This document shows positions 28,482-51,302 of a stretch of DNA of 64,000 nt, piece after piece. The notes below the pieces were generated by a model. It saw nothing but the letters and a program-made list of their open reading frames with translations. It was not told the origin of the DNA and made no database searches. Location of the stretch: positions 1 to 64,000 of the forward strand of contig JAISCT010000045.1 in the NCBI GenBank assembly GCA_031265355.1, written 5' to 3'. This DNA comes from Oscillospiraceae bacterium (GTDB lineage Bacteria; Bacillota; Clostridia; Oscillospirales; UBA929). Every line of letters begins with the position of its first letter. The first letter of the stretch is position 1. A program made the position numbers and the translations under genes.

Positions 28482-28556
28482 TAGTACCTTGTTGCCGCGA
28501 AGCGGCAACAAAAAACAAGAATTTGGGTTGTGGGTTGCAGGTGCAACCCACATTAG
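28482..28556 (+). repeat. 75-bp palindromic element, copy 1 (upstream of lysA)
   Basis: The element contains two hairpins, GTTGCCGC-GAA-GCGGCAAC and a GTGGGTTGCA/TGCAACCCAC stem, joined by an A/T-rich linker. An exact copy lies in inverse orientation at 51206-51280. A 10-base direct repeat TGAGATAGTA flanks this copy (28477-28486 and 28558-28567). It sits between the FAH gene and the lysA ribosome binding site. Confidence 0.9.
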
Positions 28557-34405: not shown

Positions 34406-34664
34406 TTGCGGTTATGCTTTTATGGAGGTGATTGCAGACATAAAATCGCGGCGGTGAACGGAGAAACGCTCGATCCCGTAAGTGCCCTGCCATTTTGCGG
34501 CGTGGCCGGTGCAGCGGTCGCGCGGGTGCCGATCTCTCGGCGCGACGCTTGCGGTTTTGGGATTGGCGACCCCCGCCCCGCAGGGGAACAACACGTTTGG
34601 AGCGGAGGGAGTGTCCCACGAGATAGGTGAGTTTGGAATACATAAATTCAGGAAGGATGTCAAG

Positions 34665-37600
34665 ATGTATAAGAAGAGAGGCAAGTTTAGGAAATTTCTG
34701 GCTGTCTGTCTGGCGTTGACGGTGGTCTTGGCGCCGTCGTTCGCTTCACCCGCGATCGTCGTCGCCGCGCCTGCCGAGGGCAACCCGGAGCTTTCCCGCG
34801 CCATCGGGCCGGAAGGCATGGTCCTGCTCAAAAACGACGCGGGCGCCGACGGCGCGCAGGTGCTGCCGCTGAAATCAACGGACAAGATTTCGGTTTTCGG
34901 CGGCGCGCAGATCAATACGATCAAGGGCGGTACGGGTTCCGGCGACGTCAACGTGCCCTACAACAGGAACATTCTCTACGGGATACGGCAAAAAGTCACC
35001 GCCGGCAAAGTCGCTCTCGACACGGCGACGTCCGCCCAGTATGAATCCGACACCGGCTACACGGCCACGGACGATTTCGTCCAGACGGCCAAAGACGCCG
35101 GCTCGAACAAAGCCGTCGTCGTTCTGAGCCGCAATTCCGGCGAAGGCGGCGACAGAAACGCCGGCAAAGGCGACTATTATCTTTCCGACGCTGAAACGGC
35201 GCTGATACAGCGCGTTGCGGCAACATTTGCGGACGTCGCCGTCGTGCTCAACATCGGCGGCGTGATGGATCTGACATGGGTCGATTCTTATCCGCAGGTC
35301 AAGTCGGTGCTGCTGGCGTGGCAGGCCGGTATGGAGGGCGGCAACGCCATTGCGGACGTTCTTGTCGGCGACGAGTACCCGTCCGGGCATCTGGTGGATA
35401 CGTTCGCCAAGTCCTATGATTACTACCCGTCGTCGACGGCAAGCGGTATCGGCGCGTTCGGCGGCGACGGCGACGTCTATTACGGCGAGGACATTTATGT
35501 CGGTTACCGTTATTTTGCCACGGCGGACCCGACGTATTCCAGAGTGCAGCATGAGTTTGGGTACGGCCTCGGCTACACGCGGCTCGACACGGTTCCGGCC
35601 ATCCGCGGTTCCGCGCCGGATTACGGCCCCGTGGCTGTGGAGGAAGGCAGTATCAAGGTTTCGGCGACCGTAACCAACGCTGGGACAGAATACAAAGGCA
35701 AAGAAGTGGTTCAGGTCTATTTCGAGGGGCCGAGCGGCGCTCTCAACAAGCCCGCCCGCGAATTGGCGGCTTTCGAAAAAACTGGGGACCTTGCCCCGGG
35801 CGCCTCGCAGACGCTCGAAATCAGCTTCCCTGTCAGCGACCTCTCGTCTTACGACGACTTGGGTGTGACCGGCCATAAATCCTGCTGGGTGATCGAGCCG
35901 GGGCGTTACTGGGTGTATGTCGGCAATTCGGTGAAAAACGCCGTGAAAGTCGGCTATTACGAAGTCGCGGATCTCATTGTGACCGAAGAGGCGCATGAAT
36001 ATCTCACGCCGTCGGCAGGCTTCGACGTCCTCATCGACCCCACAACCGGCGAGACGCGGCATAACGGCCCGGAAATTCCGCCCGTCACGTTTGCGATAGC
36101 AAATAACAAGACGTCTGTCGTCAACGCCTATGAGCCGTCCAAGAGATCGGCGGGGATCTCGTTCCCTGTGGGCACGGCGGCTGGCGTTCCGTCTGTCGTC
36201 GGCTTTGAAACGGCTACATGGCTTCAGTACAGCGTGACCGTTCAGCAGGCGGGGGATTATTACTTCTCAGCGACCTATTCCAACGGGAACCCGACCGTGC
36301 CCGATTCGTTCGACGTCTTCATCGACGAGGACCCGGTGAAGCTGAACGCGGAAAACGTCGCGCTTCCGAACACAAGCGAGTCGTCGATGTATCAGATGAA
36401 GGACAGTGCAAAGTATCTCATCGCGCTTCCGCAGGGCAGCCACGTGATCAAATTGGTTTCGAAGGCGGACAGCAACGGCTATCTCAACTTCCTGAACTTC
36501 CAGCCGAGCTGGATCGAGGCCGGTGTCGTCGCGGTCAATGCGCTGACAAGTTCCAAATTGACAATCGCCGACACGTTCCTTGAAAACCTCGTCGGGACTT
36601 CCGTGATGGAAACAATCCCGAACGGCGGCGGCGACAAATGCATAGGCGCTTTTCAGACGAACAGCACGCTGACCTACAAGCTGATTGTCGCGCAGGAAAA
36701 CGATTATGACATCACAATCGACTACGCGAACGGCAATGCGGCCATGACGGACTCGATCCGGTTCTACCTGACCGACAGCACGGACAACGTGACCGCGAAC
36801 CCGCTTGCGACGACCCCCGCCGCCGTCGCGATCACGCAGACGGCCAGCTCCGGTGCGAACCGTTACTACACGTTCGTGAGCAGCGACCCCTACACGGTGC
36901 ATCTGCCCGCGGGGACGTATTATTTCACCATCCAGTCACGTACGGGCTCGGCCGGCAACCTGCGTTCGCTTACGTTCAAGCCGTCGGCGTTTGCCGTTTC
37001 CAGTGCCCGCACAACGATGATAGGCGCATACCTGGCCTCGGCGATGACGTCGGCGATCAGGGTCGAGACGGTGCCCGCGACGGGTCTTCCGACGGTCGCC
37101 TATTTCAATAGCGGTGAGGCGCTGACGTACAAGCTCAGCGTCGAACAGGCAGGGCTTTATAAGTTCCAGCTGAACTACGCCAACGGGCGCGCCGCCATAC
37201 CCGACCCGTTCGCGATTACCGTCAACGGGAACGCGACGACCGCAAGCGGCGAATCCGCCGACATCAAAGTCGCCATGGCGCAAACCGGCGACGGCAGCGG
37301 TGCCGGCGCGTGGTACAATCCGGCGATGAGCGACATCTATCTGTTTGATCTGCCGGCCAGCGCGGTCACGCTGACGTTTACGGCCAAGACGAGCTGCGGC
37401 AATCTGAATTACTTCACGCTCCGCCCGGCGAGCCTGCCGGACGGCCTGTTTGAGATCTCGGCCACCGAAACGACGGTCTGCCCGGCGTATCCGCCGACGT
37501 CGCTCGTCAAGACGGGTTCGTTCGCGTGGGAGAACGTCCCCGGAACGGAGGATCAGTGCACAGGCAACTTTGACGCCGGCACGACGATAACGTATACCCT

Positions 37601-39677
37601 TGACGTGGCGGAGAGCGGCGCGTACAATCTGGTTTTCCGCCACGCGAACTATGCCGAGCGGCTCGGCGCCGTGGACGTTTCGATCGATGGGGAGAACACG
37701 TTCACCGTGAGCTTCTCGCAAACCGCGCCGGCGGGCGCCACCGGGGGCGCGGTGTACTATACGTTCGCCGACAGCGTGCCGTATCCCATCCAGCTGGCCG
37801 CCGGAAGGCACACGCTGACGCTGGTTTCCAAGACGACGGGTGCGGGCAACATCAGCGCGTTGAAATTCACGCCGGCGCTTGCCGCCAGCAGCGCGCCCGC
37901 CAGAGCGCAAACGGCGCCGCTCGCTTTTGAAGCCGCCGTGTCAAGCCTTGCGCAGGCCGGCGCCGCGCGCGGTTACACCTATGATCCTGCCGGATACACG
38001 CCGCTTTATTACACCGACCGCGAAAATTCGATCTTCAATCCGGGCGCGAGCGCCGGTCCGAAGCTCGTCGACGTGTATAACGGCGACATCACGCTTGACG
38101 ACTTCGTGCAGAATTTCACGCTCGACGAGATGGCCGAGCTTTCCCAGGGGCACGGGGCCGGCGTGCCGAGCGGCACAGGGACCCTGGGCGGCCTTAGCAG
38201 GCTTGGCGCGCCGGCGCTCGAAACCGCCGACGGCCCGGCCGGGCTGCGCATCGACAGCGCAACCGCCTGGCCGATTGGGACGATGCTCGCCTGCACGTGG
38301 AACACCCCGCTCATCGAGCGGATGGGCGAGGCCGTCGCGGCCGAGATGGTCGCCAACAGGGTGGATATCTGGCTTGCGCCGGGCATGAACATCCACCGCA
38401 ATCCGCTCTGCGGCCGCAATTTCGAGTATTATTCCGAAGATCCGCTTGTGACGGGCAAAATCGCCGCCGCCCTGACGCGCGGCGTCCAGTCCCGCGACGT
38501 CGGCGTGACGCTCAAGCACTACGCCGTAAACAACCAAGAGCAGAACCGCAACGGCGGCTCAAACTCAGTGCTGACAGAGCGCGCGGCCCGCGAGATCTAT
38601 CTGAAGGGATTTGAGATCGCCATCAAAGAGGGCGACCCGTTCTGCATCATGTCGTCCTACAACCTGATGAACGGCGTCGAAACGTCCGAGCGCTGGGATC
38701 TAATCACCGGCATCCCGACCGGCGAGTGGGGCTGGCACGGCATCATGATGACCGACTGGGGCAACGGTTCCAACAATGCCAGAGAAGCCGCAGCCGGAAA
38801 CGACATCAAGATGGCCAGCGGCAGCCCGTCCACGGTATCGGCGGCTGTCGCCGCCGGTACGCTCACGGAGGAGCAGCTCCGCGAGAATATGAAGGACATC
38901 CTCTATACGACCCTTCGTTCGCGCAAGCTGTTTGTCGAGGAGGAAATAAAAGTCGCGCCGATCCCGGCGGCCGGAACCATCCGTATCGAGGGCGAGGATT
39001 TCAACGAGAAAACCGGGAGTCCTCAGGCCGAGGGCGGCACAAATGCCAGCGGCGGCAGGGATCTCGGCTATATGGACGCGGGCGGCTCCGTGACGTACTA
39101 CATTGACGTCGCGAGAAGCGGCGCATACGAGTTCCTGTTCCGCTACGCGGGCAACAGCGGCGACGGCGGGCGTCTGGATATAGCCGTTGACGGGGTCGTC
39201 GTCTCCGCCTTCCAGGGCGGCCTGACAGGCGGTTGGCAGAATTGGGTATGGGCGGCAAGCCCGGTCACGGTTCCGCTGACGGCCGGTGAACACAGGCTCA
39301 GGCTCAATATCACCGCGAGCGGCGGCAACGTTGACTGCTTCGACGTCACACGCGCGCTCGCGCCGAACCTCTCCATCGACGACGGCTATCGGATCTATCA
39401 GTCGGCGGCCACAGTCGAGGCCGGCCAATATTCGCCGGAGTTCGCGATCATCAAGAACGATCCGGCGCCGGCTGGCGACGCGCTTCTGATCGCCGCCAGT
39501 TACGACGCCGCCGGCAGATTGATCGGAATTGACACAACGCCAGTTCCGGCTGCTGCAACAGGTTACACCATGGCCGTCGCGGCGCTCGCCAAACCCGAGG
39601 ACGCCGCCAACTGTAAGTTCTATATCTGGGACGGTCAGTACAGGCCGCTGACAGATCTGAATACGCTCGCCGAGTAA
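34665..39677 (+). CDS. Secreted multimodular GH3 glycosidase with reversed domain order
   Basis: A 1670-residue secreted enzyme. Order: signal peptide (1-~36); GH3 'C-terminal' sandwich domain (~45-300) with candidate acid/base Glu160 in 'NSGEGGDRN'; Fn3-like domain (~330-430); four related ~150-residue beta modules (~475-615, 620-772, 775-922, 926-1074), each with a Y-x-ANG or HANY core and a closing G-N-L/I motif, resembling CBM6/35; GH3 N-terminal TIM barrel (~1090-1425) with 'KHYAVNNQEQNR' and candidate nucleophile Asp1364 in 'GIMMTDWGN'; a CBM6-like module (~1432-1567); and a final Ig-like domain ending in a 'YIWDGQYRPL' motif. Canonical GH3 enzymes have the barrel first. It probably acts on plant or host beta-glycans; specificity is unknown. 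GGAAGG precedes ATG 34665. Confidence 0.9.
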   Translation: MYKKRGKFRKFLAVCLALTVVLAPSFASPAIVVAAPAEGNPELSRAIGPEGMVLLKNDAGADGAQVLPLKSTDKISVFGGAQINTIKGGTGSGDVNVPYNRNILYGIRQKVTAGKVALDTATSAQYESDTGYTATDDFVQTAKDAGSNKAVVVLSRNSGEGGDRNAGKGDYYLSDAETALIQRVAATFADVAVVLNIGGVMDLTWVDSYPQVKSVLLAWQAGMEGGNAIADVLVGDEYPSGHLVDTFAKSYDYYPSSTASGIGAFGGDGDVYYGEDIYVGYRYFATADPTYSRVQHEFGYGLGYTRLDTVPAIRGSAPDYGPVAVEEGSIKVSATVTNAGTEYKGKEVVQVYFEGPSGALNKPARELAAFEKTGDLAPGASQTLEISFPVSDLSSYDDLGVTGHKSCWVIEPGRYWVYVGNSVKNAVKVGYYEVADLIVTEEAHEYLTPSAGFDVLIDPTTGETRHNGPEIPPVTFAIANNKTSVVNAYEPSKRSAGISFPVGTAAGVPSVVGFETATWLQYSVTVQQAGDYYFSATYSNGNPTVPDSFDVFIDEDPVKLNAENVALPNTSESSMYQMKDSAKYLIALPQGSHVIKLVSKADSNGYLNFLNFQPSWIEAGVVAVNALTSSKLTIADTFLENLVGTSVMETIPNGGGDKCIGAFQTNSTLTYKLIVAQENDYDITIDYANGNAAMTDSIRFYLTDSTDNVTANPLATTPAAVAITQTASSGANRYYTFVSSDPYTVHLPAGTYYFTIQSRTGSAGNLRSLTFKPSAFAVSSARTTMIGAYLASAMTSAIRVETVPATGLPTVAYFNSGEALTYKLSVEQAGLYKFQLNYANGRAAIPDPFAITVNGNATTASGESADIKVAMAQTGDGSGAGAWYNPAMSDIYLFDLPASAVTLTFTAKTSCGNLNYFTLRPASLPDGLFEISATETTVCPAYPPTSLVKTGSFAWENVPGTEDQCTGNFDAGTTITYTLDVAESGAYNLVFRHANYAERLGAVDVSIDGENTFTVSFSQTAPAGATGGAVYYTFADSVPYPIQLAAGRHTLTLVSKTTGAGNISALKFTPALAASSAPARAQTAPLAFEAAVSSLAQAGAARGYTYDPAGYTPLYYTDRENSIFNPGASAGPKLVDVYNGDITLDDFVQNFTLDEMAELSQGHGAGVPSGTGTLGGLSRLGAPALETADGPAGLRIDSATAWPIGTMLACTWNTPLIERMGEAVAAEMVANRVDIWLAPGMNIHRNPLCGRNFEYYSEDPLVTGKIAAALTRGVQSRDVGVTLKHYAVNNQEQNRNGGSNSVLTERAAREIYLKGFEIAIKEGDPFCIMSSYNLMNGVETSERWDLITGIPTGEWGWHGIMMTDWGNGSNNAREAAAGNDIKMASGSPSTVSAAVAAGTLTEEQLRENMKDILYTTLRSRKLFVEEEIKVAPIPAAGTIRIEGEDFNEKTGSPQAEGGTNASGGRDLGYMDAGGSVTYYIDVARSGAYEFLFRYAGNSGDGGRLDIAVDGVVVSAFQGGLTGGWQNWVWAASPVTVPLTAGEHRLRLNITASGGNVDCFDVTRALAPNLSIDDGYRIYQSAATVEAGQYSPEFAIIKNDPAPAGDALLIAASYDAAGRLIGIDTTPVPAAATGYTMAVAALAKPEDAANCKFYIWDGQYRPLTDLNTLAE

Positions 39678-39699: not shown

Positions 39700-41106
39700 A
39701 TGCCAAAAATCCGGACGTCTATCTTTTTTGATAGACGTCCGGATTTATTTGTAAACGCTGTCAAATGGCTCAAAACTGTCAAAAAGTATGCCTATGACAG
39801 GCTTATGCCGAACGCGACAAACGCGGAAAGGCTCGCATACTATCCGATGGCCACGGCCCAGGCCACGGAATTCTGGCGTGCCAGCCGATTCTATGCCGGT
39901 ATCCAGCAATTCTGTGGGCTTGGCTATTCAAAGCCCGGCCAAAGCGGCGCCACAAGCGACGTCTTAAGTCCCGACCTGACGGTACCGGTTATCCGTCCCG
40001 GAGTCAAGCAGTGGTTCACAAGTGCGTTCGCGCCGCTTGGCATAATCATTGAGCAATACGGCGATACGATAAGGCTCGAATGGGGCGAAAGTAAACCTAT
40101 ATCCGTTTCACTGATCAATGATCTCAATGAGGATATCGTCGATTTGCCCGTAACGCTTGCCGTTTACGGCGACGACGGTGATGTCCTTTACTCGGAGACA
40201 AAACAGTACAGCGTCCGCGAGGCGGGCTCGGCCAATCAGAGCGACGTGAACAGGGATGTCTTTCACTTGAGGCTGACGTCGCCAGGTCTGGAAAACGGCG
40301 ACTCGCTGCGCCTTGTCGCGTCTTATGAACGCGGAGGCGTAACCGTGACGAGTGTGAGGACGCTTGTGATGTCGAGTTCTTCAAAATCAGGATTTTTCGC
40401 TGCGACAGACGAGGCGCTCATAACAGGCGACTCTGCGAAAACAGTTTCAGTTGGTACGCTGCTGGAAAACTATCAGGAAAAGGAACAGCAGTGCGTGATT
40501 ACACTGGCCATTTATGACGCTGACGGACGGCTTGCCGTCATTGACAGTAAAATCTTGAATCTTGAAATTCATGAATCTGAGCGCTTAACGAACGCCATCG
40601 CCGGAATCGTGCTCCAAAAGGGCTATACCGCTAGCGTCTACATTTGGGACAATGGTTACGTACCCCTTGCCGCCGCACAGGGCTTGCCTTTAAGTCAGCG
40701 TGAAGAGACAATCTACAGCGCGGCGAATGCGGAATTCGGCGGAGGAGTACGCCTTACTACAAACACCGCGTCGCCTTCTGGATACGAATTGGGGTATATT
40801 GATCAGGCTTCTTCATTTTTCCAATGGAAAAACGTCATAGGCGGCAAACCGGGAGATAAATACCTGCTGAAGCTCTATTATGCCACCAATAACAATCCGG
40901 GAAGCTATAAAGTATTGGTAAATGGAGAGAATGCGGGCAGTGTTTCTTTCAATAAAACGGGCGGCTGGAGTAATTATTCCGGCATCGCTGAGCTTGAACT
41001 GGTTTTAACGTTGAATTCGGATAATACCAACGTGATTCGTTTTGAACGTGTGGCAAGCGAGGCCAACGTAGCTCAAATTTCGCTGGCGGCGATAACAGAG
41101 TACTAA
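39700..41106 (+). pseudogene. 5'-truncated glycoside hydrolase with C-terminal beta modules
   Basis: The 468-residue frame opens inside a hairpin element, so its first ~18 residues are repeat-derived. Homology-like sequence begins around 39755 ('VKKYAYDRLMP', 'YYPMATAQATEFWRASRFYA', 'SAFAPLGIIIEQYGD'), which looks like the tail of a glycosidase catalytic barrel, followed by an Ig-like domain, a domain ending 'YIWDNGYVPL' that matches the end of the GH3 protein, and a CBM6/35-like module. The catalytic part and signal peptide are gone. It is most likely a decayed fragment joined to the repeat by recombination. Any product would be cytoplasmic. Confidence 0.65.
39709..39744 (+). repeat. Hairpin element copy A
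   Basis: A 15-bp perfect stem (ATCCGGACGTCTATC) with a six-T loop, followed by TTTATTTG. It can serve as terminator of the GH3 gene. The same stem occurs at 41195 and 42096. Confidence 0.85.
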
Positions 41107-41123: not shown

Positions 41124-41250
41124 TCACAATCAGGCCGATTGTGACGCTATGTAAAAGCGGCTGGCGCCGAGAAAATTGACAAAAATACTAAAAGATCCGG
41201 ACGTCTATCTCTTTTCGATAGACGTCCGGATTTGTTTCTATAGCCCGTCA
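41124..41250 (+). repeat. Hairpin element copy B (extended)
   Basis: The stem ATCCGGACGTCTATC...GATAGACGTCCGGAT (41195-41231) is followed by TTGTTTCTATAGCCCGTCA. About 70 bases before the stem lies TCACAATCAGGCCGATTG, which is nearly repeated before copy C. The element separates the truncated glycosidase from the toxin-antitoxin genes. Confidence 0.85.
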
Positions 41251-42044: not shown

Positions 42045-42150
42045 TCACAATCAAGCCGATTGCGGCGTCGCGGGAATTACCCCCAAATGCCACAAATCCG
42101 GACGTCTATCTTTTTCCAATAGACGTCCGGATTTGTTTCTATAGCCCGTC
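42045..42150 (+). repeat. Hairpin element copy C (extended)
   Basis: Stem ATCCGGACGTCTAT...ATAGACGTCCGGAT (42096-42132) is followed by TTGTTTCTATAGCCCGTCA as in copy B, and preceded at 42045 by TCACAATCAAGCCGATTG. It lies directly after the PIN toxin gene. Confidence 0.85.
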
Positions 42151-51185: not shown

Positions 51186-51205
51186 CCTGCATCCATTCCC
51201 TTCTC

Positions 51206-51280
51206 CTAATGTGGGTTGCACCTGCAACCCACAACCCAAATTCTTGTTTTTTGTTGCCGCTTCGCGGCAACAAGGTACTA
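51206..51280 (-). repeat. 75-bp palindromic element, copy 2 (upstream of pheT)
   Basis: An exact reverse complement of the element at 28482-28556, lying between pheS and pheT and oriented toward pheT as copy 1 is toward lysA. It contains the same two hairpins. Confidence 0.9.
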
Positions 51281-51302
51281 ATGTCAATCGCCTGACGGAC
51301 CC

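Follow-up and report, generated by a model that had tools for sequence, protein, structure and literature searches.

A GH3 enzyme of unusual length is encoded in the window, by which we mean the whole stretch of 64,000 nucleotides of Oscillospiraceae bacterium DNA that was analysed. Most probably it is a secreted exo-beta-glycosidase of the permuted GH3 type, in which linker 2, the connector between the Fn3 domain and the barrel, has been expanded by four CBM6/35-like modules, the two catalytic halves of a single chain come together in the GlyA1 manner, and the modules tether the enzyme to glycan. The architecture is rare, recurrent and conserved, and is not a freak of one genome.

The gene is an uninterrupted open reading frame of 1670 codons on the + strand (to which all coordinates below refer), running from the ATG at 34665 to a stop codon ending at 39677, and its product is about 176 kDa. 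A GTG at 34482 offers an alternative, longer start, which is unnecessary because the proteins of congeners align from the methionine at 34665 and GGAAGG precedes that ATG. From its N-terminus the protein comprises a signal-peptide-like stretch, a GH3 sandwich, an Fn3 domain, four CBM6/35-like modules, a GH3 barrel, a fifth CBM6 and a C-terminal beta domain. The first of these (residues 1-35; 34665..34769), read by eye from its basic start, hydrophobic core and AXA-like end, suggests that the protein is secreted. With the full protein as query, Pfam finds GH3_C at residues 52-281 (2.6e-39), an Fn3-like domain at 347-422 (1.5e-18), GH3_N at 1178-1413 (1.9e-25) and CBM_6 with five stretches (8.8e-39); it finds no dockerin. 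This order agrees with the preliminary description, made from the letters of the DNA, in which the sandwich came first and the barrel last; the Fn3-like domain and the four homologous beta modules that it placed between the halves are likewise recovered by Pfam and an iterated profile. It had overlooked the fifth CBM6 (residues 1443-1562; 38991..39350), which matches Pfam CBM_6 on its own (4e-18), and the C-terminal beta domain (residues ~1566-1670; 39360..39674), in which a Pfam search gave no match and which resembles stretches in other giant hydrolases of the same genome.

The protein is a GH3 enzyme, since PF00933 and PF01915 both score above cut-off and the candidate catalytic residues align. 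It belongs to the known permuted subfamily (ABS-FLD-ABB), which was defined by GlyA1, a ruminal beta-glycosidase (PDB 5K6L-5K6O; PMC5104943). Membership follows from the sandwich-Fn3-barrel order, from its place within the tree of permuted GH3s and from the best match of its barrel, 5k6l. In a sequence search of solved structures the top match, and hence the closest solved relative by sequence, is the Paenibacillus barengoltzii beta-glucosidase (5WUG, 5WVP), also of permuted order, with GlyA1 close behind; the named GH3 relatives of the host genome are mostly from Clostridia and Paenibacillus, from which the label 'Clostridia-type' used below is deduced. Both the alpha/beta sandwich (Glyco_hydro_3_C, residues 52-281; 34818..35507) and the (alpha/beta)8 barrel (residues 1133-1425; 38061..38939) align nearly full length to 5wug and 5k6l, and in an AlphaFold2 model of residues 786-1670 the barrel matches 5k6l with a Z of 38.9 (rmsd 1.9 A over 304 aligned residues). 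Both halves are complete, as judged from HMM coverage and the modelled barrel.

All nine catalytic and subsite -1 residues of GlyA1 are identical in the window protein: D532, R597, K630, H631, R641, Y677, D709, W710 and E143 correspond to D1189, R1251, K1284, H1285, R1295, Y1332, D1364, W1365 and E160, respectively. The alignment thus bears out the two residues already proposed as candidates, namely E160 as acid/base (35142..35144; motif SGEGGDR) and D1364 as nucleophile (38754..38756; motif MTDWGNG), and neither of the defects that could have undone the assignment, an incomplete half or a missing catalytic residue, was found. In GlyA1, the D709A mutant loses detectable activity (PMC5104943). 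GlyA1 Trp-711, of the +1 subsite, is replaced by Gly. The nine residues are kept across insert-bearing relatives, with Glu at the position of E160 wherever it is covered. In L210, Glu seems to take the place of R1295, but this exception stems from a shift in the alignment: an Arg is present at the same offset in its KHFAANNRENER. Full-length NCBIfam equivalog models match the window protein below cut-off. The most likely predicted activity is that of an exo-beta-glycosidase of the beta-glucosidase type on plant cell-wall oligosaccharides, and the full protein would be expected to be catalytically active.

The insert, of 640 residues, sits in linker 2, the surface connector leading from the Fn3-like domain (residues 347-422; 35703..35930; PF14310) to the barrel, and so lies outside either catalytic domain. 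Three more permuted GH3s are encoded in the same genome (contigs C9, C42 and C2), all without the insert. Alignment to them shows that the insert begins past the first half of linker 2, which is conserved (residues 435-485; 35967..36119; dN/dS 0.10-0.13; equivalent to GlyA1 411-443), and that it ends just ahead of the barrel. The linker 2 of GlyA1 has about 57 residues and no modules; its first half wraps the core and its second half is an extended arm that clasps the barrel on the surface (PMC5104943). By alignment, the modules take the place of this arm. The preliminary description held that the active site must form across a very long insertion. The insert does lie between the halves, but it is in a surface connector and not in a catalytic domain, and because the GlyA1 connector runs over the surface, formation of the active site is less problematic than had been implied.

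In GlyA1 the arm further holds an extended beta7-alpha7 loop in place (PMC5104943). This loop has 12 residues in the window protein versus about 22 in GlyA1, and it is short in every insert-bearing protein measured and in many insert-free permuted GH3s. A link between the insert and the short loop was considered and rejected, because relatives that lack the insert but sit nearby in the tree share it; the short loop is a background trait and at most permissive. A GlyA1-type connector, that is, a short linker clasping the barrel together with an extended loop, is absent from the window protein, whose Fn3-to-barrel gap is 708 residues. Such a connector is a trait of GlyA1 itself and does not define the permuted subfamily. 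Since insert-free permuted GH3s often share the short loop, the window protein is a variant that is still within the subfamily.

Other characterized enzymes resemble the window protein in part. GlyA1 also carries a C-terminal module, predicted to be CBM6/35, comparable to the C-terminal CBM6 here, and in the P. barengoltzii enzyme, unlike the window protein, the Fn3 domain and the barrel have no modules inserted between them. The rumen beta-glucosidase BrGH3A shares the permuted order, but has 814 residues, no inserted modules and no signal peptide (PMC11233000). In the PA14-bearing GH3s of canonical order, Kluyveromyces marxianus BglI (3ABZ) and Streptomyces DesR (4I3G), an extra domain is accommodated in the catalytic assembly with the active site intact; there, however, it is one PA14 inside a loop of the sandwich domain. 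A search of open-licence papers gave no description of modules inserted in linker 2 of a permuted GH3.

Orthologues with the insert are present in three congener species at 82-89% identity and dN/dS 0.17-0.23, which indicates that the architecture is not due to chance. Against the congener G004 (82% identity, overall dN/dS 0.23), dN/dS is 0.13-0.15 in the sandwich, the Fn3 domain, the first half of the linker and the barrel, 0.20-0.30 in the modules, 0.30 in the tether that follows them and 0.45 in the C-terminal domain. The pattern against G003 is the same (0.10 in the barrel, 0.20-0.39 in the modules). Taking the congener comparisons together, the catalytic parts and the first half of the linker are at 0.10-0.15 and the modules at 0.18-0.39. 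Constraint is about the same on the two catalytic halves and weaker on the modules, as is expected if one shared active site still forms.

The iterated profile finds four inserted modules, at residues 496-613 (36150..36503), 644-772 (36594..36980), 796-920 (37050..37424) and 951-1069 (37515..37871), all of which match the CBM6/35 profile. Taken singly against the Pfam CBM_6 cut-off, modules 1 (1.6e-9) and 4 (1.6e-10) pass, module 2 falls under it (0.0026) and module 3 has a weak CBM_35 match alone. An AlphaFold2 model of module 3 (pLDDT 76, from a six-row alignment) has as its best fold match the Clostridium thermocellum CBM35 (2W47/2W1W; for 2w47, E 8.5e-7, 26% identity), and also matches CBM6 structures; in the longer model (786-1670), modules 3 and 4 were effectively modelled from single sequence and confidence there is low. 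The inserted modules of the window and of other lineages form one profile family, in a clade separate from the C-terminal CBM6 (support 100/99), and several of them have a QTGDGSG..WYN motif in common. In a tree of the modules, M2 and M4 group (94/88), and M1 and M3 show no clear grouping, for which reason duplication of an M1M2 pair to give M3M4 was rejected.

On the main reading the inserted modules would bind carbohydrate. The alternative that they are structural spacers or protein-contact modules in which carbohydrate binding has been lost is possible, though less likely. The C-terminal CBM6 (M5) and the inserted modules of several relatives have an N-terminal EAE-type motif that is missing from modules 1-4, which may therefore have lost sugar binding; moreover, modules 2 and 3 are under the Pfam cut-off and module dN/dS exceeds that of the catalytic domains. 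On the other hand, the CBM35-like fold is retained, as is, in modules 2-4 but not in module 1, an aromatic pair (YY or WY) at a conserved position, and most amino-acid changes in the modules are still purged by selection.

How the halves would come together can be pictured from GlyA1. The first, conserved half of linker 2 would stay wrapped on the catalytic core, and the four modules would loop out as a side arm. They are followed by an Ala/Pro-rich, poorly conserved tether (residues 1076-1132; 37890..38060; 61% identity to the G004 orthologue vs 92% in the barrel), and an Ala-rich stretch occupies this position in other insert-bearing proteins too. Being flexible and about 55 residues long, the tether would give the barrel slack to dock back on the sandwich, whereupon E160 and D1364 would form one GlyA1-like active site in one chain. 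The inserted modules and the C-terminal CBM6, up to five in all, could then keep the enzyme attached to insoluble glycan, close to the oligosaccharides that it would cleave. The docking within one chain is our inference, and a connector of about 708 residues in place of about 75, with a flexible tether, would also permit an active site built from the sandwich of one molecule and the barrel of another, in a domain-swapped dimer or oligomer. We regard such swapping as unlikely, the first half of linker 2 being conserved as in insert-free enzymes, which fits ordinary docking in-chain. An extension of the same idea, in which modules and tether decouple the halves so that neighbouring chains share active sites and a cross-linked, substrate-bound multi-enzyme array results instead of a monomer, is quite unlikely. 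That the halves no longer cooperate and the protein is a non-catalytic binding protein has only the great length of the insertion in its favor, and is very unlikely considering that all catalytic residues are conserved here and in the insert-bearing relatives and that constraint is strongest in sandwich and barrel. The preferred reading remains the secreted enzyme with its two halves docked in one chain.

The preliminary description called the insert unusual, and rare it is: among 96 permuted GH3s, which were gathered from searches and are not a random draw, 88 have an Fn3-to-barrel distance of 44-153 residues and the other eight one of 354-711, the connector of the window protein having about 708. 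It is not unique, as two or four modules occupy the same site elsewhere. Querying 295 genomes of the same order with the inserted modules found the insert in only two genera, the window's and one other, and the same query turned up nothing more in 398 genomes of the phylum. At class level, a search with the whole protein contributed G578, from another family, and a query from the G578 protein then yielded G1183, G1193 and G1263. In total, inserted modules are present at 13 loci, which come from ten genomes belonging to six genera in three families. Nine of these loci lie outside the window and the three congeners, in two further families, and have two or four modules at the same place. Confinement of the insert to the window's genus, which had held over 80 named-genome loci, was overturned by the inserted-module and two-module-relative queries. 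Among viral contigs, two weak relatives were the only ones found. Members of the window's genus and one G1183 protein have four modules, and all other complete proteins have two; the G002 and G1263 loci are interrupted by contig ends or gaps. It is hardly conceivable that misassembly or an artefactual gene fusion in a single genome accounts for the architecture: the same order and insert recur in the three congener orthologues, in one of which (G003) the neighbourhood upstream of the gene is conserved, and the insert is at the same site in other genera.

In trees of the catalytic domains, from which the insert was left out, proteins with the insert share one neighbourhood, interspersed with some that lack it. 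A single origin of the insert was not upheld, as three gain or loss changes are needed and a fuller tree forces at least two on well-supported branches; one gain followed by losses, or transfer, is possible. The four modules of L209, from another lineage, group together, which suggests that the two four-module forms expanded separately. Relatives L186, L210 and L211 carry a C-terminal dockerin, and L209 a probable one just below the Pfam cut-off. The dockerins point to plant-fibre degradation and suggest that the insert architecture may also serve cellulosomes.

Several features of the locus and of related genes may be recorded here. A near-perfect palindrome, ATCCGGACGTCTATC-N6/7-GATAGACGTCCGGAT, is found at 39709-39744, 41195-41231 and 42096-42132; the genome has no other copy, and all three lie a short way downstream of the GH3 gene, flanking an ORF of 468 aa together with a PIN-domain gene. 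In G003 there are two copies only (C261), flanking a different, 1856-aa gene in the same place, so the palindrome looks like a locus-specific cassette boundary. The 468-aa ORF (39700-41106) has a C-terminal CBM6-like stretch and no full-length family match; its true start is probably further down, since its first codons run through the palindrome, and it may be a gene fragment, though not clearly a remnant of the 1856-aa gene of the congener. A dispersed inverted repeat (CTAATGTGGGTTGCACCTGCAACCCACA...) occurs at 28484-28554 and 51205-51284 in opposite orientations, and also at the congener locus L057. Across the genome there are 19 matches to the GH3 barrel. Most of them lie in giant ORFs (1100-2400 residues), which include a 2218-aa protein with two barrel matches (C2, L013) and a 2290-aa protein with a second, partial sandwich match (C63, L011). 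In a Eubacterium sp. MAG, a protein of 2097 residues (L097:4707-10997) consists of tandem permuted GH3 units, in the order sandwich-barrel-sandwich-barrel.

The Fn3-to-barrel connector is thus a site that takes module pairs or quartets in several Clostridia-type lineages. The permutation of GH3 may offer a place where modules can be added without breaking the shared active site, and the natural variants with none, two and four modules are a ready set for testing whether the modules help against insoluble fibre.
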